Of a stretch of DNA of 64,000 nt, positions 7,609-18,650 are shown in pieces. Position 1 is the first letter of the stretch, and each line of letters starts with the position of its first letter. Position numbers and translations under genes: made by a program. The stretch covers positions 62,001-126,000 of the forward strand of contig NZ_JABBND010000001.1 in assembly GCF_012933465.1 (NCBI RefSeq), in the 5' to 3' direction. This DNA comes from Actinomycetospora sp. TBRC 11914. GTDB lineage: Bacteria; Actinomycetota; Actinomycetes; Mycobacteriales; Pseudonocardiaceae. A model generated the notes under the pieces. That model was not told where the DNA came from. It saw only the letters and a list, made by a program, of their open reading frames with translations, and did no database searches.

Positions 7609-8344
7609 CGCTACCGAATTCTCACGGCTCCAGTGGCGCGGCGCACCTTAAACATAGAGGGCAGCCAATGTGCAAGCGTCGATACCCACGGCCATATCGG
7701 CGCCAACCAACGCACCATACTCCGTATCGAGCTCACCGAGCCCCAGACGCCCGCTCGACAAGAACATCGATCAAGGCAGCGTTGGGCCTGACGGAACAGA
7801 CGACTCGTCGTGCTAACCGAACCACGGATTACGAGGACGTTTGTCTCCGCGAGCGGCAGCCTCTGTGCGTCCATCGGTGCACGTCGATAGCCCCGCCGTG
7901 CTCGCCCACGCGCTCACGTTCCACCCGTCTCATGCCGCGACCCGTTCCACCGGCGCGGGCCAAGCCGCTCGCGGTCGGCGCCAGAGGCGGACTCGCGGCT
8001 CCGTTGAGGCAGGTAGCTAACCCGGAGCTCGCCCCCCGCTCGGGGGCCCGCTGCCGGGGGCGACGGGCGGGGATGCCGGCTGCCACAAGGCCCGTGCAGC
8101 CGTCTCGCTCCCCGCGCGCCGACCAAGCACGCGTCCTTCTTGCAGTCTTCAATGCTCGGGCAGAATGTAACGCGAGGCCTTCCAATGATGGCAGTCGGTA
8201 GAGCTCTGCTCACCAGACGTAATCTGAGACTACTCCTAATGAGTGGTCGTGGTGCCGGTTCGCTACGTTCGTTACCACCCTAGCCTCGAAGGTTGGGAAG
8301 ATAGCCGTCCTGCAATCGTCCGTATTCAATTCGTTCGGAACACG
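7609..8344. other. Non-coding stretch, 0.74 kb
   Basis: No open frame here carries a recognisable motif. Around 8190 a short D-arm-like string occurs, but no tRNA cloverleaf can be completed. The last 100 bases could code an N-terminal extension of the next gene from a GTG at 8243, which I consider less likely than the ATG at 8345. Confidence 0.4.
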
Positions 8345-9355
8345 ATGACACAGCCGCGCTCGCGAGACCGTCGCCGTCGCCCTTCTGGTCACGCTTCAGT
8401 GGCGAACCGGCTACGACGACCGCCCGTAGCCGGGCGCTATGCCTCAAGATCGGCGCTGCGCTGTCCCAAGCGGTCATTATGGCGTCGCTTCACCGACGGG
8501 CTTGCGCGAGTGTGGCGTGGAGTGCGGGGGAATGCAGCTGTGGTGGCGGCAATCGCCACCGCCCTGGCGGCAGTGATAAGCGCCCTCGTGGCCACTGCCG
8601 CGCTGAACTCCACTCAACGACAGATCGAGATCGCTGAGCAGGGCCAGGTCACCGATCGCTATACCCGAGCTGTATCACAGCTTGGCGATCCGGGCCCCGA
8701 CGTGCATCTTGGTGGTATATACGCTCTTGAGCGCCTGTCTCACGATTCCCCTCGCGATCAGCCAACGATTCTCGCTGTGCTGTCTGCATATGTTCGCAAT
8801 CACGCACCAAAATCGTCTTGCCCCTCTCGGAATCCGCCGGCGTCGGGCCAAAGTTCGGCATTACCAGCGGTGGTTTTTGGTCTGCCTGAACCTCCGAGCG
8901 ACGTCGCTGGGGCGCTCACCGTCCTAGGGCGACGTGATCCGGCCCAAGACGCAGGTAGTAGGATCGATCTGGCCGGAGCATGTCTGCTGGGCGCTAATCT
9001 GATCGGCAACAACTTTGCAGGCGCGCGCATCTTCGACGCCGACCTCACGGGCGCCAATTTGACTGACAGTGGCCTCAAGGGCACCGAGTTCGTAGGCAGC
9101 AAACTTAACTTCTCCCACCTCGCAGATGCAGATCTTCGAGGTGCTGACTTCTACGACGCTGATCTTTCTTTTGCCCGCGCCGCTGGCGCCAATTTTGCGG
9201 GCGCAACACTAAGGGGCGCCAACCTCAGCGGCGCCGACCTAACGGGCGCAGACCTAAGCGGTACCGACCTAACGGGTGCTGACATTTCGTCCGCTATCCT
9301 TATTAATGCCACTGGGGCAAACCTCACCGACACTCTCGGGGTACCGCTCCGCTGA
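8345..9355 (+). CDS. Membrane-anchored pentapeptide-repeat protein, 336 aa
   Basis: From the chosen ATG the protein has a basic N-terminus, one strong membrane helix ([18 protein letters not shown], about residues 60-80), then the [14 protein letters not shown] and [13 protein letters not shown] stretch typical of this actinobacterial membrane-plus-pentapeptide family. The C-terminal 130 residues form a right-handed quadrilateral helix of A(D/N)LxG pentapeptides ([18 protein letters not shown]). Such proteins are common in Streptomyces and Frankia accessory regions; their function is not established. Start at GTG 8243 would add 34 residues with no better ribosome site. It stands alone between broken genes, with no obvious partner. 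Confidence 0.8.
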
Positions 9356-12072: not shown

Positions 12073-12371
12073 ATGCGCGACAGGGTCGCGGAGCCGCTCC
12101 TTCTTCAACGCGCGACAGCACGTCGTCAATAGTACGGGTGCAAGCATCCAAGCTGACGGGATTGAGGTCCGTCGAGACGTCGTCTTCGGACCGGGTTTTG
12201 CACCCACCCCGACGCCGGGGCGGCCCGAGCCCGGGTGGTCGATCACCTGGTCGGCGCGCGGTGACGCCGGGACATCCCCGCGCCGCGGGTGCCGCACGCG
12301 GCACCGTCGCGGCCGCGAGGTGAGCGATCGTCCCGCTCGTGCCCGACTCGAGCAGGACGCGACCCGCGCGG
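12073..12371. other. Junction of the island with core-like DNA
   Basis: No gene is seen in these 300 bases. Composition and coding density change here from the broken-gene island to compact operons, so a right boundary of the accessory region may lie near 12070-12200. I found no direct repeat or tRNA end that would mark an attachment site. Confidence 0.3.
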
Positions 12372-12890
12372 TCAGTGCGACACCCCGCTCGATGCTCCTG
12401 TCTGGTCGGTGGACCGGGTGTCGGCGGAGAAGGCGCGGGTCAGCGCGTCCTGCTGGGTCCGGGTGAGCGTGGTGGCGAGCAGATCGATGTGCGTGTCCGC
12501 GAGGACCTCGCCGACCGCGTCGACCACGGCGTCGTCGGTGAGCAGGAACAGCGCTGACGTGCCGGCGACGATGCGGTCGCGGACCCGACCGAGGAACGCG
12601 TCGGGCAGCCCGACGTGGGCCAGCCCCGCCCCGGCGGCGGCCGTGGACCCGCTGAGCGGGAGCAGGAACACCGTCCCGAACAGCAGGCCCCAGAACGCGC
12701 CGGACAGCGCGGCCGTCCCGGCGGCGGTCCCGGCCTGGTAGGTCCGGGGCCGCGCCGCGTCGGCCGCCCAGGCGACGACGGAGGCGTCGTCGAGGGTGAG
12801 CAGCCGCTGGTTCTGCCGGCGCTCGAGCGGTCGCAGCGCGGTCTCGGCACCGGTCTCGGTGTCGAACGTCCAGATGCTCAGCGTGGTCAT
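12372..12890 (-). CDS. DUF1269-type membrane protein, 172 aa
   Basis: The protein starts MTTLSIWTFDTETGAETAL. It has a predicted N-terminal ferredoxin-like fold that includes LLTLDDASVVAWAAD, a glycine/alanine-rich hydrophobic hairpin (GTAALSGAFWGLLFGTVFLL, about residues 58-80), and a C-terminal half with VRDRIVAGTSALFLLTDDAV. This is the layout of DUF1269 proteins, whose role is unknown though some are stress-linked. It lies downstream of the AfsR/SARP-type regulator gene on the same strand with a 110-bp gap that carries two direct heptamer repeats, so it likely has its own SARP-controlled promoter. Confidence 0.8.
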   Translation of the reverse strand: MTTLSIWTFDTETGAETALRPLERRQNQRLLTLDDASVVAWAADAARPRTYQAGTAAGTAALSGAFWGLLFGTVFLLPLSGSTAAAGAGLAHVGLPDAFLGRVRDRIVAGTSALFLLTDDAVVDAVGEVLADTHIDLLATTLTRTQQDALTRAFSADTRSTDQTGASSGVSH

Positions 12891-12955
12891 GTCGGTGCTC
12901 CGGTCCCGCTGCGGGCGGTGTCCCCGCCCGTCTGCCGACCACGGTGCCGCGGGTC

Positions 12956-12993
12956 CTCCAACGCGACTCCAACTCCGGTCGCGCGGGTTGGAG
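12956..12993 (-). promoter_or_regulatory. Candidate SARP operator upstream of the DUF1269 gene
   Basis: Read on the minus strand, GTTGGAG occurs twice (12967-12973 and 12956-12962) with a 4-base spacer, giving the 11-bp period typical of SARP binding sites. A third copy in inverted orientation lies at 12987-12993. The downstream-most repeat is 66 bp from the start codon at 12890. The same heptamer occurs at a matching distance upstream of the FAD oxidoreductase gene. Confidence 0.6.
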
Positions 12994-13000
12994 CCGCTGC

Positions 13001-15814
13001 TCAGGCCAGGAACTCGACGAGGGCGGTGCGGGCCCCCTCGGCCCGGGCGCGGGCGGCCGTCGTGGCGCCGAGACGGGCGGTGATGGCCGCGAGCAGTGTC
13101 GACATCTCCTCGTCCCGGGGCCACGGCACGCCGGCCGAGCGGTGCTGGGCCTCGGCCGCACCGAGGACGCGCAGCGCCGCGGCGTCCTCGCCGGCCCGAC
13201 CGAGCGCGAGGCCGTAGATCTCCAGGGCGAAGGCGTTGTCGCGCAGGCCCGCATCGGCCGACGCCTGCAGCATCGCGCGCGCCCAGGGCAGTGCCTGGTC
13301 GGGACGGCCGTCCGCCAGCGCGATCGTCGCCGCCCCCGCCGCGGCGCTCCACGCCGTGTACAGGTTGTCGGCGGCACGGGCGTCGTCGTGGAGCGCGGCG
13401 AAGCGCGCCACCAGCTCCGGGCGGGGATCGGCGACGGCCTCGGCGAGCAGCTGCGCGTGCCGGACGACGACGTCGAGCGCCGGGGCACCCGCGGCGAGCC
13501 GCGTGCTTGCGGCCGCCACCTCGGCCAGGACCTCCGCGTCGCCGACCCGGCCCAACGGGCCCGTCGTGACGGCGAGGTCGTCGCACACGATCGCGGCGTC
13601 GTCGCCGGTCAGGGACTCCGCGGCGGCCAGCGCCTCCCGGACGCGAACCCGCCCGGCGGCGGGATCGCCCTGCACGAGCCGGGAGTTGGCGTCGCCGAGC
13701 AGGAGGAGCACGCGGTCGACGGGCTCCGCGAGGGCCGGGTCGGCCTCGACGGTCCGCAGGACGGTCTCGCGCTGGCGGTCGCCCTCCAGGGCCTTGCCGC
13801 TGAACGCCCAGTACAGCCCGAGGCGGGCCACGAGCGCCGCGCCCAACGGGGTGGGGGCGTCGACCAGGGTGCGCTGCACCGTCGCGCGGATCCCGGCGAG
13901 GTCGTCGTCGAGGGCCGCGTACCAGCTCGCCATCGTGTGCGAGCCGAGCCGCGGCTTGTCGCGGGCGAGACCCTCGACCCACGCGTCGCGCCGGGCCGCC
14001 GGGTCCTCACCGGCCCGGTCGGCCTCGTGCACGGCGTGCCCGCGCACCGTCGCGAGCTGGGCGAACCGCGACGCACCACCGGCTCGCGGCGGCCCGAGCG
14101 CCGACAGCATGGAGCGGTGCACCAGCCCGGCGACGGCGTCGACCGCGTCCGTCGTCGTCATCCCGGTCAGCGCCGCCGCGACGTCGACGGTGAACGGGCC
14201 GGGCACGGCACCGACGGCGCGGTGCAGCGCGGCGAGGGGCTCGGGGAGGGCGCGGTAGCTGGTGTCGACGGCGTCGCGGACCGTCCGGTGATGGTTCGTG
14301 CCGCGGCGGCGCCCGACCCGGCTCAGCGTGCTGGCGTCGGCCCGGACCTGGGCGGCGATCTCGGTGAGCGTGTACGCGCGGGCGCGGCCGGCGGCCAGCT
14401 CCAGCGCGAGCGGGAGCCCGTCGACGGCCTCGGCGATGTCGCGGACGTCGACCATCGACTCGTCGTCGCCCACCCCGCCGGGCACGAGCGCGTCGAGCCG
14501 GTCGAGGAACAGCTCGACCGCCGCCGTCGACGTGAGCGGTGCCAGGGCCACGACCTCCTCGCCGTCGACCTCCAGCGGTTCCCGGCTGGTCGCCAGCACG
14601 GCGAGCTGCGGTCCTCCGACCAGTACCTTCTCCACCAGCTCGGCGACGGCGTCGAGGACGTGCTCGCAGTTGTCGAGGACGACGAGCATGCGCCGCGCGG
14701 ACGTGAAGCGGCGCAACGCCTCCGCGGGCTCGGCGGGACCCGAGGCCGGCACCTCCAGCGCGGACGCGATCGTGTCGGGGACCCCCTCGGGGGTGGCGAC
14801 CGTGAGGTCGACGAACCACGACCCGCCGGGCGGCGCGGTCTTCCGGGCGACCTCCAGCGCGAGCCGCGTCTTGCCGCACCCCGCCGCGCCCACGATCGTG
14901 ACCAACCGCCCGGGCACGACCAGCCCCGCGAGCTCGGCCGTCTCCCGTTCCCGCCCCACCAGCCGGCTGCGCGCCTCGGGGAGGTGCTGCGACGGCTCCG
15001 CCCGGGCAGGCGCGACGACGGGCCCGGGTGCCTCGTCACGCAGCAGTTCGGCGTGCAGCGCCTGGAGTTCGGGCCCCGGCTCGACACCCAGCTCCTCGAC
15101 GAGGACGGTGCGGGCGTCGGTGTAGGCCTGCAGCGCCTCGGCGCGCCGCCCGGCGTCCCGGTAGGCCGTCATCCGCAGCAGCCACAGCCGCTCCCGCAAC
15201 GGTTCCTCGGCCAGCGCCGTCTCGAGCTCGCCGAGGGCCTGCTCCGGAGCGCCGGTGCCCAGCAGAGCCCCGATGTGGGTCTCGCGGAGGCCGGCACGGA
15301 CCGCGTCGAGACGGGCGACTGCGGCATGCGCCCAGTCCTGCTCGGCGGCCACGCCGTAGGGCCGACCCCGCCACAGGGCGGCCGCCCGGGTGGCCTGTGC
15401 CAGAGCGCCGGTCGCGTCGCCGGAGGCGAGACGATCGGCCGCGGCGGTCGCCAGCCGGACCAAGCGGGCCGAGTCGGTCGGGTCGTCCCCGGTCAGCACG
15501 AGCCGGTAGCCGCCGGGGTCGCGGACCAGGACCCTCGACGGCTCGCCCCGCGCCCGGCCGGGTTCGAGCACCCGGCGCAGCCGCCACACGTGGGAGTCGA
15601 GCGTCGACACCGAGCGGTCGACGCCGCGCTCGCCCCACATGGCCTCGCACAGCGCGTCCACCCCGACGGTGTGGCCGCCGTGGATCAGCAGCAGCGCGAG
15701 CGCCGACTCCAGCCGGGCGCCCCCCACGGCACTCACCTCGCCGCCCCGTTCGACCTCCAGCCGGCCGAGGTCCCGGAAACGCACGGGCGGCTCGGCGGGC
15801 GTGTCCGTGGTCAT
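13001..15814 (-). CDS. AfsR/SARP-type transcriptional regulator with NB-ARC ATPase domain, 937 aa
   Basis: Domains in order: winged-helix OmpR-type DNA-binding domain (residues about 10-95, with SVSTLDSHVWRLRRVLEP), bacterial transcriptional activator domain (about 100-245), NB-ARC/STAND ATPase (Walker A GAAGCGKT near 310, Walker B MLVVLDNCEH near 375, LPLALELAAGRA as the GxP motif), then a helical TPR-like C-terminus. Proteins of this plan activate secondary-metabolism or stress genes by binding direct heptamer repeats. The ATG at 15814 is preferred over an upstream TTG because the canonical domain starts soon after it; its ribosome site lies inside a strong stem-loop. The FAD oxidoreductase gene lies upstream on the same strand and the DUF1269 gene downstream, both with matching repeats. 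Confidence 0.88.
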   Translation of the reverse strand: MTTDTPAEPPVRFRDLGRLEVERGGEVSAVGGARLESALALLLIHGGHTVGVDALCEAMWGERGVDRSVSTLDSHVWRLRRVLEPGRARGEPSRVLVRDPGGYRLVLTGDDPTDSARLVRLATAAADRLASGDATGALAQATRAAALWRGRPYGVAAEQDWAHAAVARLDAVRAGLRETHIGALLGTGAPEQALGELETALAEEPLRERLWLLRMTAYRDAGRRAEALQAYTDARTVLVEELGVEPGPELQALHAELLRDEAPGPVVAPARAEPSQHLPEARSRLVGRERETAELAGLVVPGRLVTIVGAAGCGKTRLALEVARKTAPPGGSWFVDLTVATPEGVPDTIASALEVPASGPAEPAEALRRFTSARRMLVVLDNCEHVLDAVAELVEKVLVGGPQLAVLATSREPLEVDGEEVVALAPLTSTAAVELFLDRLDALVPGGVGDDESMVDVRDIAEAVDGLPLALELAAGRARAYTLTEIAAQVRADASTLSRVGRRRGTNHHRTVRDAVDTSYRALPEPLAALHRAVGAVPGPFTVDVAAALTGMTTTDAVDAVAGLVHRSMLSALGPPRAGGASRFAQLATVRGHAVHEADRAGEDPAARRDAWVEGLARDKPRLGSHTMASWYAALDDDLAGIRATVQRTLVDAPTPLGAALVARLGLYWAFSGKALEGDRQRETVLRTVEADPALAEPVDRVLLLLGDANSRLVQGDPAAGRVRVREALAAAESLTGDDAAIVCDDLAVTTGPLGRVGDAEVLAEVAAASTRLAAGAPALDVVVRHAQLLAEAVADPRPELVARFAALHDDARAADNLYTAWSAAAGAATIALADGRPDQALPWARAMLQASADAGLRDNAFALEIYGLALGRAGEDAAALRVLGAAEAQHRSAGVPWPRDEEMSTLLAAITARLGATTAARARAEGARTALVEFLA

Positions 15815-15816
15815 CG

Positions 15817-15839
15817 GCTCCCCTCGCACCGAGGGGAGC
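15817..15839 (-). promoter_or_regulatory. 10-bp perfect stem-loop covering the regulator's ribosome site
   Basis: GCTCCCCTCG and CGAGGGGAGC pair perfectly around a 3-base loop, ending two bases before the start codon. On the transcript the GAGGGGAG ribosome site is buried in the stem, so translation would need the hairpin opened. An alternative is a protein operator. Confidence 0.6.
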
Positions 15840-15904
15840 TCGTCGTCACGGTCCCGAATATGGACCAGGCCTGAGCCGGTCCACAACGGGCGCGCTACCG
15901 GGAC

Positions 15905-17260
15905 TCACGACACGGATGCGGGTTCCAGGATCGTGACGCCGGTCCGGAACAGGTTCCGCGGGTCCGTCTCCGCCTTCACCTCCTGCAACCGGGCGAGCGT
16001 CGCCGCGTCGAAGGCGCCGCGGGCGTCGACGGGCCTGCCGTCGGGCCGGCAGGTGAAGTTGAGCAGTGACCGGCCGCCGCTCCACGGCAGCAGCCGCTGG
16101 TAGAACGCGGTCTGGATGCCGGCGGCGTCCGCGAACGCCGGGCCCGGGTAGGCCGAGGTGAACACGTTGAACGCGGCGTCTCGGTGGCCGACGGCGTCGG
16201 GCACGGCGGCCGGGCGGGCGAGGGCGCCACCGAGGTGGCGCAGCTCCAGCATGTGCGGCGTCGACGCGCCGACCTCGGCGAGCAGCACCTCGATCGCGGC
16301 GTCGTCCCACACGGGGAGCACCGCGCCGCCGCAGCTCACCGGCTGCGGGGCGGTCGGGTCGCCGTGGATGGTGCCGAACTCGAGGATCGGCAGGGGCCGC
16401 ACGGTGTCGAGGATCGGGGCCGCCACGGCGCGGAGCGGAGCGATGAGCCGCTCGGCCTCCTCGGGCGCACCGCTGTACGTCACCCGCAGGTGGGCGACGA
16501 AGCGGCCGCGCAGCGGCGCCGGGACGGCCTCGATCGGCGGGAAGGACACGAAGGCCACGGACAGGCTGAGCGCGTCGGGCGCGCCCGCGGTGACGCGGCC
16601 GAACGCGGCCACCAGCTCCGCGGCGCACTCCCCCGGCAGGAACAGCCCGCCGCCGTACAGCGCGTCGCCGGGGACGAGGTCGAACTCCAGCTCCGTCGCG
16701 ACACCGAAGCCGCTGCCGCCGCCGCGGACCGCCCAGAACAGCTCCGGGTCGGGGGCGGCAGTGACGTCGCGGACCTCGCCGTCGGGGGTGACGAGCCGAA
16801 TCCGGCGGACCCGGTCGGCCGCCCAGCCGTACCGCCGGCCGAGCGGGCTCAGCCCACCACCCGTCGTGTAGGACGCCACGCCCACCTCGGGCGACGACCC
16901 GCACAGCGGGATCAGCCCGGCCGGCGCGCAGTGCGCGAGGACCGGCGTCCACGTCGCGCCGCCGCCGACGACTGCGGTGCGCCGCTGCGGGTCCACGCGG
17001 ACCCGGTCGAGCGCGCGGGTGTCGATCAGCACGCCGCCCTCGTCCCCGCCGACCGGGCCGTGGCCCGTCGTGCGGACCACGACGGGCAGGTCGCGCTCGG
17101 CGGCGAACCGCACCGCGGTGACGACGTCGGCCTCGTCGCGGGCGGAGACCGCGACGTCGGGGGTGGGGATCGCGGACAGGTCGAAGCCGGCGCGGGCCGC
17201 GTCGTAACCCGGGGTGCCGGGCGTGAACACGGTGGGGATGGTGTCGAGGATGGTGGACAT
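15905..17260 (-). CDS. FAD-binding oxidoreductase, berberine-bridge-enzyme type, 451 aa
   Basis: The N-terminal half is a PCMH-type FAD domain (VRTTGHGPVGGDEGGVLIDT near residue 62-81, GGGLSPLGRRYGWAADRVR near 135-155, AVRGGGSGFGVATELEF near 180-200). The C-terminus has the BBE-like end PRNLFRTGVTI. The usual His and Cys pair for bicovalent FAD is not obvious: GHGPVGG replaces the common R-G-G-x-H, so attachment may be single or absent. Such enzymes oxidise small or secondary metabolites with O2. The start has AGGAG 8 bases upstream. Three direct heptamer repeats with 11-bp period lie 63 bp before it, implying control by the neighbouring SARP-type regulator. Substrate unknown. Confidence 0.85.
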   Translation of the reverse strand: MSTILDTIPTVFTPGTPGYDAARAGFDLSAIPTPDVAVSARDEADVVTAVRFAAERDLPVVVRTTGHGPVGGDEGGVLIDTRALDRVRVDPQRRTAVVGGGATWTPVLAHCAPAGLIPLCGSSPEVGVASYTTGGGLSPLGRRYGWAADRVRRIRLVTPDGEVRDVTAAPDPELFWAVRGGGSGFGVATELEFDLVPGDALYGGGLFLPGECAAELVAAFGRVTAGAPDALSLSVAFVSFPPIEAVPAPLRGRFVAHLRVTYSGAPEEAERLIAPLRAVAAPILDTVRPLPILEFGTIHGDPTAPQPVSCGGAVLPVWDDAAIEVLLAEVGASTPHMLELRHLGGALARPAAVPDAVGHRDAAFNVFTSAYPGPAFADAAGIQTAFYQRLLPWSGGRSLLNFTCRPDGRPVDARGAFDAATLARLQEVKAETDPRNLFRTGVTILEPASVS

Positions 17261-17322
17261 GGCCGGCTCCTGGGGACGGGGCCGGTCGTCGGCCCGCTCG
17301 GCCACGACGTTGCGCGCCGCAG

Positions 17323-17351
17323 CTCCAAGACCCCTTCAACCCGGCTCCAGC
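17323..17351 (-). promoter_or_regulatory. Candidate SARP operator: three direct heptamers, 11-bp period
   Basis: On the minus strand the heptamers GCTGGAG, GTTGAAG and CTTGGAG follow one another with exact 4-base spacers. They agree with the GTTGGAG pair upstream of the DUF1269 gene. The last heptamer ends 63 bp from the start at 17260. Confidence 0.65.
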
Positions 17352-17579
17352 GGAATTGGAGACGGTCCTGTCACCATCCCGACGTGCTGAGGAGCCCGTC
17401 CGCCCTGCGGTCCGCGCTGGCGCCGCTGCCCGGGCACTGGGGAGCCGCCGATCCGGCGCCCGTGGGCACACGCGGCGTCCACTCACTGCCCGTCTGCGCA
17501 CCTAGGGCCCGTCCGACCCTTTTGTGTCGTTCGCGCCACTGGTACGTGGGGTGGACGACACCACTGAGGGAGGCCGGTC

Positions 17580-18650
17580 ATGGCAGCCATCGAGAACCCG
17601 TTCTACACACACGAGCACCACGGCGATTACGAGGAGATCAGCATCGGGCGCCTGGACCTCGAGGAGGGCGGCTCGATCCCGGACTGCCACCTCGCGGTCA
17701 CGACCTTCGGAACGCTGAGCGAGGCCAAGGACAACGTGATCCTCGTGGTCACGTGGTACTCGGGCACCCACCAGATCTTCCGCGAGCAGTACATCGGCGA
17801 GAACCACGCGCTCGACCCGTCGCGGTACTTCATTGTCGTGATCAACCAGATCGGCAACGGACTGTCGACCGCGCCGCACAACGCGTCGGGGGTCAACGCC
17901 GAGCTCGCGATGTCGGCATTCCCGAAGGTCCGCATCGGGGACGACGTCGTGGCGCAGGAACGCCTGCTGCGCGAGCACTTCGGCATTGATCATCTCCAGC
18001 TCGTGGTCGGCGGCTCCATGGGCGCGCAGCAGACCTACGAGTGGGCCGTGCGGTTCCCCGACAAGGTCCTGCGCGCCGCGCCCATCGCCGGCACCGCGCA
18101 GAACACCGACCACGACTTCCTCTACGTCCGCACGCTCATGGAGGCCATCACCTCCGACCCGGGATTCCGCGACGGCGAGTACTCCTCCAACGACGAGGTC
18201 CAGGTCGGACTGGAGCGCCACGCCCGAATGTGGGGCGTCATGGGCTTCTCCACCGAGTTCTGGAAACAGGGCGTCTACCAGGGCCTCGGCTTCGACGACA
18301 TGGACGCGTTCCTCGCCGGATTCCTGCAGCCCTACTTCACAGTGCGCGATCCCGATGATCTGCTGGCGATGATGTGGAAGTGGCAGCGCGGCGACGTCGC
18401 GCGGCACACCGGCGGCGACCTGGGCGCGGCCCTCGCAAGGATCACCGCGAAGACGTTCGTGATCCCGATCGACGAGGACATGTTCTTCCCGCCGCGGGAC
18501 TGCTCGTTCGAGCAGAACATGGTCAAGGGCTCGGAGCTCCGGGTCGTGAACGACGTCCTGGGCCACCTCGGCCTCTTTGCGGTCAATCCCGACTACATGC
18601 CCCAGATCGACCGGCACCTGCGCGATCTGCTCCGGACCCCGGTCGGCTGA
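17580..18650 (+). CDS. MetX-like alpha/beta-fold hydrolase/acyltransferase, 356 aa
   Basis: The protein shows the homoserine O-acetyltransferase-like fold: oxyanion area HNASGVNAELA, nucleophile elbow GGSMGAQQTYEWA (Ser near residue 143), an acid in VIPIDEDMFFPP, and the histidine in LGHLGLF. Helical lid elements lie between. True MetX enzymes have a longer substrate-binding signature not clearly seen here, so hydrolase or thioesterase activity is equally possible. The start has GGGAGG 8 bases upstream. It stands alone, with no close neighbour on the same strand. Confidence 0.8.
   Translation: MAAIENPFYTHEHHGDYEEISIGRLDLEEGGSIPDCHLAVTTFGTLSEAKDNVILVVTWYSGTHQIFREQYIGENHALDPSRYFIVVINQIGNGLSTAPHNASGVNAELAMSAFPKVRIGDDVVAQERLLREHFGIDHLQLVVGGSMGAQQTYEWAVRFPDKVLRAAPIAGTAQNTDHDFLYVRTLMEAITSDPGFRDGEYSSNDEVQVGLERHARMWGVMGFSTEFWKQGVYQGLGFDDMDAFLAGFLQPYFTVRDPDDLLAMMWKWQRGDVARHTGGDLGAALARITAKTFVIPIDEDMFFPPRDCSFEQNMVKGSELRVVNDVLGHLGLFAVNPDYMPQIDRHLRDLLRTPVG

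Follow-up and report, generated by a model that had tools for sequence, protein, structure and literature searches.

The promoter of afsS in Streptomyces coelicolor, whose -10 (CACTGT) and -35 are both poor, is recognized by AfsR at two 11-bp repeats located at -40 to -19, where R92 of the regulator contacts T at -38 and -27, and AfsR adapts sigma (PMC10936776). The distance given in the same paper between the last repeat and the -10 is about 8 bp, a figure that varies with the point taken as the end of the unit. Binding of PimR, another SARP regulator, requires two heptamer units (PMC5930380), and the gene of the mitomycin radical oxidase, mcrA, is located outside the mitomycin cluster (PMC6804068). 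These descriptions, and the comparisons made with them below, are drawn from parts of the cited papers.

Here we describe a locus of the soil actinomycete Actinomycetospora sp. TBRC 11914 in which a large SARP regulator is likely to activate two neighboring genes, encoding a FAD-dependent oxidase (FADox) and a small DUF1269 protein, from predicted operators, replacing the -35 element and recruiting RNA polymerase. The locus constitutes a candidate new control switch, with one activator, one repeated word and two neighboring genes. The window, that is, the whole stretch of DNA analyzed, comprises 64 kb (G000:C1:62001-126000) of a 6.52-Mb genome, and contains the following features:

12372..12890 (-), DUF1269 gene, encoding a small protein
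12941..12946 (-), -10-like hexamer CACCGT, 9 nt 3' of the DUF1269 operator
12956..12973 (-), predicted DUF1269 operator, GTTGGAG-4-GTTGGAG (sequence scan; conserved in L003)
13001..15814 (-), large SARP regulator (Trans_reg_C, BTAD, NOD-type ATPase, helical C-terminal third)
15817..15839 (-), hairpin, its 3' arm with the ribosome-binding site of the regulator
15857..15886 (-), candidate own promoter of the regulator, TTGTGG-18-CATATT, with no heptamers (found by eye; TTGTGR-18-CATATT kept in L003)
15905..17260 (-), FADox, a FAD_binding_4 oxidase whose nearest solved protein is the mitomycin radical oxidase
17307..17312 (-), -10-like hexamer CAACGT, 10 nt 3' of the FADox operator
17323..17351 (-), predicted FADox operator of three heptamers, GCTGGAG-4-GTTGAAG-4-CTTGGAG (sequence scan; conserved in L003)
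17323-17340 (-), core doublet of the FADox operator
12394..17449 (no strand), block shared with Pseudonocardia dioxanivorans CB1190 (the cassette), 90.4% nucleotide identity

Direct repeats at two promoters

In agreement with a previous sequence-only reading of this DNA, both repeats are direct, lie on the coding (minus) strand with an 11-bp period and, upon recount, end 63 bp (FADox) and 66 bp (DUF1269) ahead of the start codon, counted to its first base, which leaves 62 and 65 nt between. That reading placed both in promoters flanking the regulator, which is correct for DUF1269 but not for FADox, since the minus-strand order is FADox promoter, FADox, regulator, DUF1269 promoter and DUF1269. 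With SYTGRAG as the strict heptamer and pairs counted at periods 7-30 on both strands of the window, 65 occurrences were found, forming three pairs at period 11 (two from the triplet), one at period 22 (also from the triplet) and none at the other 22 periods, when about 0.03 pairs per period (65 x 65 / 128,000) are expected by chance. A scan of the whole genome for three units at 11-bp spacing, the check proposed by the same reading, returned this single triplet, versus 0 for the reversed-pattern control.

The looser doublet YTGRAGN5YTGRAG occurs six times in the genome, and its control also six. Three of the six matches correspond to the two promoter sites, those on contigs C25 and C62 fall in opposite-strand long frames whose third positions are rich in G+C (0.95-0.96), and the remaining one (C1:165950) is located in long open frames of ordinary composition, its sequence resembling that of the C62 match. 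A motif equally common within coding sequence had been named as what would speak against an operator, and for the bare doublet, genome-wide, this turned out to be so (six versus six). The bare doublet is at chance level across the genome, but its clustering at two adjacent promoters is not chance; consequently, the case rests on position and conservation and not on the rarity of the word. A large regulon in this genome was also considered, and is unsupported by the same scan.

Inverted heptamers are present at 17355-17361 and 12987-12993 (+); read on the operator strand they are CTCCAAT and CTCCAAC, and they precede the core doublets by 14 and 13 nt, with CTCCAAT at 14 nt and CTTCAAT at 12 nt in P. 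dioxanivorans. Considered as a conserved part of the operator, the inverted heptamer occurs at the two promoters of either genome, and is inconsistent in the loci of other relatives.

Conservation of the predicted operator and of its distance to the -10

The repeats are found again next to regulator homologues in Actinomycetospora and Pseudonocardia. A heptamer model built from the five units of the window alone was run on 18 loci whose homologous regulators can be aligned over the greater part of their length, two 90% copies of the window (L003 and L131) and one locus identical to L006 (L007) being left out of this period test. At a score of at least 16, 12 pairs were found at period 11 and two in total over 14 control periods (not multiples of 3, nor 11 or 22), with up to five pairs at multiples of 3 and four at period 22. 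In 70 more distant loci the three pairs at period 11 represent no excess over the same 14 control periods (28 in total, two each). A GTTGGAG-type operator was recognized in 11 of the 18 loci (L002, L004, L005, L116-L122 and L132), in L122 before the regulator itself, and a GTGTGAG operator in two (L126 and L133); near the regulators of the other five (L006, L009, L123, L124 and L125) no operator was recognized.

A -10-like hexamer, (C/G)ANNNT, with a background of 0.0144 (1.4%) per position, is found 9 or 10 nt downstream in 15 of 22 matches to the window-only model (score of at least 14; window plus 19 other loci), or 11 of 17 without the window and L003. The same hexamer follows all 21 curated sites (19 at 10 nt, two at 9 nt), and a start codon stands 53-80 nt after 19 of them, with one at 105 nt and one without an assigned start; several of these sites come from close relatives and, like related loci in general, are not independent. 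Model matches outside the curated set are the window site at 17351, L120 7755 and L120 4825, which are upstream pairs of triplets, as well as L118 4862, L119 9288, L120 7498, L120 4814 (which has a -10) and L122 3577. Conversely, the curated sites of L005 and L121 and two in L116 were added beyond the model list, and those of L119, L126 and L133 were picked from a scan requiring a start codon, not a -10. Both features expected of a SARP operator are thereby found, namely direct heptamer repeats with an 11-bp period and, through this hexamer, a last repeat near the -10 and over the -35 position.

Judged by sequence comparison, it is the two units closest to the -10 that form the conserved core; in P. 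dioxanivorans, the third unit of the FADox operator is GCTGGAT. The motif (G/C)(T/C)TG(G/A)AG formulated in the sequence-only reading describes the sites here, whereas across relatives the curated sites define a looser one, about N(T/C)TG(G/A)A(G/A).

The regulator and its expression

In Pfam, the regulator scored 29.2 bits for Trans_reg_C (cut-off 26.2) and 121.1 bits for BTAD (cut-off 22.1), the domains of the SARP family. Behind BTAD, alignment with AfsR over residues 10-609 reveals a NOD-type ATPase with an intact P-loop, whose residues are invariant in nine homologues; Pfam NB-ARC itself is below cut-off (21.2 versus 23.5). The assignment to the AfsR/SARP type is therefore upheld by Trans_reg_C, BTAD and the NOD-type ATPase, and for the family of AfsR itself (NCBIfam NF053617) the protein reached 160.3 bits versus a cut-off of 1430 bits. 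No TPR family was found in the C-terminus in the Pfam scan, and the AlphaFold model (mean pLDDT 83.8, pTM 0.50) is all-helical after residue 587, that is, in the last third.

The DNA-contacting residues R92 and T88 of AfsR align with R78 and S74 of the regulator. R78 is kept in 19 of 19 readable rows and S74 in 17 (21 rows are listed, L005 and L124 lacking the region), and asparagine occupies the S74 position in L009 and L123, both without an operator found. In L126 and L133, the loci with GTGTGAG operators, a leucine replaces the recognition-helix residue H75. These two cluster with L125, separately from all others (100/100), in a tree calculated without L124, a fragment, and L005, in which the reading frame is interrupted past the start of the match. 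L125 keeps the histidine and has neither operator word, and thus the covariation between H75 and the word rests on two cases. Such regulator-operator pairs with differing words could reveal a SARP recognition code. L126 (G000:C14:63411-66236) is a full-length paralogue (38%) encoded in the same genome, next to a GTGTGAG-4-GTGTGAG doublet.

Regarding expression of the regulator, the sequence TTGTGR-18-CATATT suggests a basal promoter; a stricter sigma-70 scan returned 0 sites at the regulator, FADox or DUF1269 promoters. Just 5' of the ATG, the nine-pair hairpin holds GAGGGGAG in its 3' arm, and the 61-nt fold (-29.9 kcal/mol, z -3.8) was equaled in stability by none of 200 shuffles; translational control of the regulator by this hairpin is possible. 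A shorter version can be seen by eye in P. dioxanivorans. No terminator-like site was found in 12200-17700, which makes read-through from FADox possible, and the FADox operator may in this way drive the regulator too.

Operator-linked genes in relatives

In 18 genomes of the genus, the pattern TTGRARN5TTGRAR gave seven matches, versus six for the control; five of the seven are at most 5 kb from a homologous full-length regulator (two in G000, one in G005 and two in G009) and the other two are not. In 297 genomes of the family, TTGGAR twice plus a -10 gave 14 matches (control nine), five in already-known loci and nine new. Identical sites in G504 and G520 are located 63 nt 5' of a FADox orthologue (69% over 434 residues; domains FAD_binding_4, BBE and SnoaL_2). 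Within 17 kb around these sites no regulator match was found, and each genome carries a full-length regulator homologue (49%) on another contig. This homologue is the likely regulator of the orthologue, and that of G504 contains the L006 regulator exactly, so that L006, without an operator nearby, would have one in trans. In G574, the site is 60 nt 5' of a FAD_binding_3 hydroxylase gene, and the same locus displays a further operator 63 nt 5' of a DUF1269 gene (48%), as well as a third doublet with TACCGT 10 nt downstream; the best regulator homologue of this genome (39%) is about 40 kb off on the same contig, with its own adjacent operator and -10. This 4-kb stretch (L167:6854-10726) thus holds three doublets or triplets of one word, before FAD_binding_3, DUF1269 and a third frame. 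The other six new matches have no such context, L168 falling in a coding-like frame and L169-L173 lacking a start codon at a suitable distance; only weak regulator matches (31-34%) are present in L171 and L172. The minimal regulon anticipated by the sequence-only reading fits this genome at the sensitivity of the loose doublet scan, but relatives have other targets, which may be located at a distance from the regulator.

Among solved proteins, FADox is best matched by the mitomycin radical oxidase (E 3e-115, residues 13-444), and for the bagremycin/ferroverdin oxygenase family BagG/FevA2 it scored 387.1 bits, below the 850-bit cut-off. Operator-linked genes in relatives encode FAD_binding_3 hydroxylases (L002 and L167), an RPE65/lignostilbene-type dioxygenase (L116, and the second gene in L004) and tautomerases (L117-L120 and L122), the latter followed by an Asp/Glu racemase gene in L120 and L122, the two tested. 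Other operator-linked genes are of the glycine-transporter type (L122), have a metallo-beta-lactamase fold (L133) or a peptidoglycan-binding domain (L132), or belong to no family at all, and in L005 an AMP-binding gene is found in or behind the first operator-linked frame. When nine operator-linked proteins were scanned, no NCBIfam cut-off was reached among the matches listed.

That these genes are mostly oxygenases and tautomerases suggests detoxification or catabolism, and our guess is that the system responds to an aromatic compound, quinone-like or other, by oxidative detoxification or catabolism. No biosynthetic gene cluster was found around the regulator among the genes scanned in the partly annotated window. 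More tentatively, and as a conjecture that we find plausible but would not yet call probable, this Pseudonocardiaceae clade of large SARPs may serve not antibiotic clusters but chemical-response cassettes. In each, a single sensor-activator and a single standard promoter, made up of a heptamer doublet and (C/G)ANNNT 9-10 nt further on, would be paired with one enzyme of detoxification or catabolism that can be exchanged for another (an oxidase, an aromatic hydroxylase, a lignostilbene-type dioxygenase or a tautomerase), in several cases accompanied by DUF1269. The cassettes would be able to travel between genera as intact units, and from one subclade to the next the operator word would change in step with the recognition helix.

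A cassette shared with Pseudonocardia dioxanivorans

The alignment with CB1190 is a single 5060-bp block that stops at both ends. The rpoB regions of this genome and P. dioxanivorans share 86.5% identity across their main 3.6-kb block (91.8% within the genus). Since the cassette is more similar than rpoB, and the best regulator of the same genus reaches only 62%, transfer is the likely explanation, and on this sequence comparison the cassette probably moved between genera. No integrase or transposase family was found in ten frames at the cassette ends (six of L003, four of the window), most of which have no family and may not be genes. In a search of 296 genomes of the class, in which the P. 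dioxanivorans genome (G179) is not among the genomes listed, the genome's own copy is the only full-length match among the matches listed, the next spanning about 1.2 kb.

A MetX-like alpha/beta hydrolase gene (17580-18650, +; NCBIfam PRK07581) adjoins the cassette; its product finds an 81% match in the genus genome G017 and only 38% in P. dioxanivorans, which places it outside the shared block. A pentapeptide-repeat protein is encoded at 8243-9355 (+), a few kb downstream of the cassette. Being self-contained within 5 kb, the cassette offers a handy system for studying what NOD-type SARPs sense.

Proposed mechanism and alternatives

By analogy with AfsR, we infer that ATP, perhaps together with a small-molecule inducer, would act on the NOD-ATPase and the helical C-terminal part to release the regulator. 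Two SARP domains would then occupy the GTTGGAG-4-GTTGGAG doublet next to each other; with this doublet in place of the -35 element, they would hold sigma region 4 and bring RNA polymerase to a poor -10 (CAACGT or CACCGT), turning on FADox, perhaps the regulator via read-through, and DUF1269. When the GTT of the last heptamer is set on -28 to -26, a -10 is predicted after 9 nt, which is true at DUF1269, most sites having 10 nt; the geometry fits that of the solved AfsR promoter within 1 bp. The reading of the repeats as SARP operators is sustained by the class of the regulator, the period, the -10 distance, the recurrence beside homologous regulators and the recovery of a FADox orthologue through the operator alone. 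Binding by this regulator, activation instead of repression and sigma adaptation are putative steps, against which alternatives have to be weighed.

The repeats might be bound by another regulator, either a different SARP of the genome or a response regulator carrying an OmpR-type domain, the neighboring SARP being not the binder or not the only one. The genome holds eight matches to the SARP regulator at E 1e-3 or better, and PhoP also binds direct repeats of 11-bp period at the AfsR site (PMC10972967); nevertheless, the operators adjoin homologues of this very regulator, and beside its nearest full-length paralogue, L126, stands another word, so that we regard this alternative as unlikely. 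Less probable still, and in our view quite improbable, is that the regulator binds the repeats as a repressor released by an inducer: occupancy of the -35 region could block RNA polymerase as well, but no good -35 was found at these promoters, so that an activator seems needed, and the SARPs studied in the parts of PMC5930380, PMC10936776 and PMC10972967 drawn upon are activators. Finally, chance or a codon-phase echo, compatible with the genome-wide doublet count, was discarded as exceedingly improbable given the excess in homologue loci at period 11, which is no multiple of 3, the -10 and start-codon distances, and the retrieval of FADox and DUF1269 genes by the operator pattern.

Comparison with known systems

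Literature searches combining GTTGGAG with SARP returned no title on SARP operators among the matches listed, and those on SARPs and catabolism, on SARPs of Actinomycetospora or Pseudonocardia and on AfsR in P. dioxanivorans returned nothing on this clade among the matches listed. The kind of system is known; its word, clade, targets and cassette are absent from the literature among the matches listed. For large SARPs that do not belong to Streptomyces antibiotic clusters, the locus provides an operator prediction complete with -10 and geometry.

The mitomycin radical oxidase (McrA/MCRA) is the best solved relative of FADox but, in the parts of PMC6804068 considered, mcrA has no SARP link. The operators of PimR and other SARP-LAL regulators likewise consist of three or two heptamers with 4-bp spacers (PMC5930380); the PimR heptamer, however, is CGGCAAG, its main operator, as described in part of that paper, is not over the -35, and its targets belong to an antibiotic cluster. 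The system of AfsR and its afs box at afsS shares with the present one the domain order of the regulator (E 4e-36), two repeats of 11-bp period starting with GTT, a nearly equal distance to the -10 and a poor -10, CACTGT there and CACCGT or CAACGT here (PMC10936776). It differs in the word, CGTT(T/C)ATCGNN for AfsR (PMC10972967) versus the heptamer GTTGGAG, and in scope, the role of AfsR being global whereas the predicted targets of the regulator described here are local.
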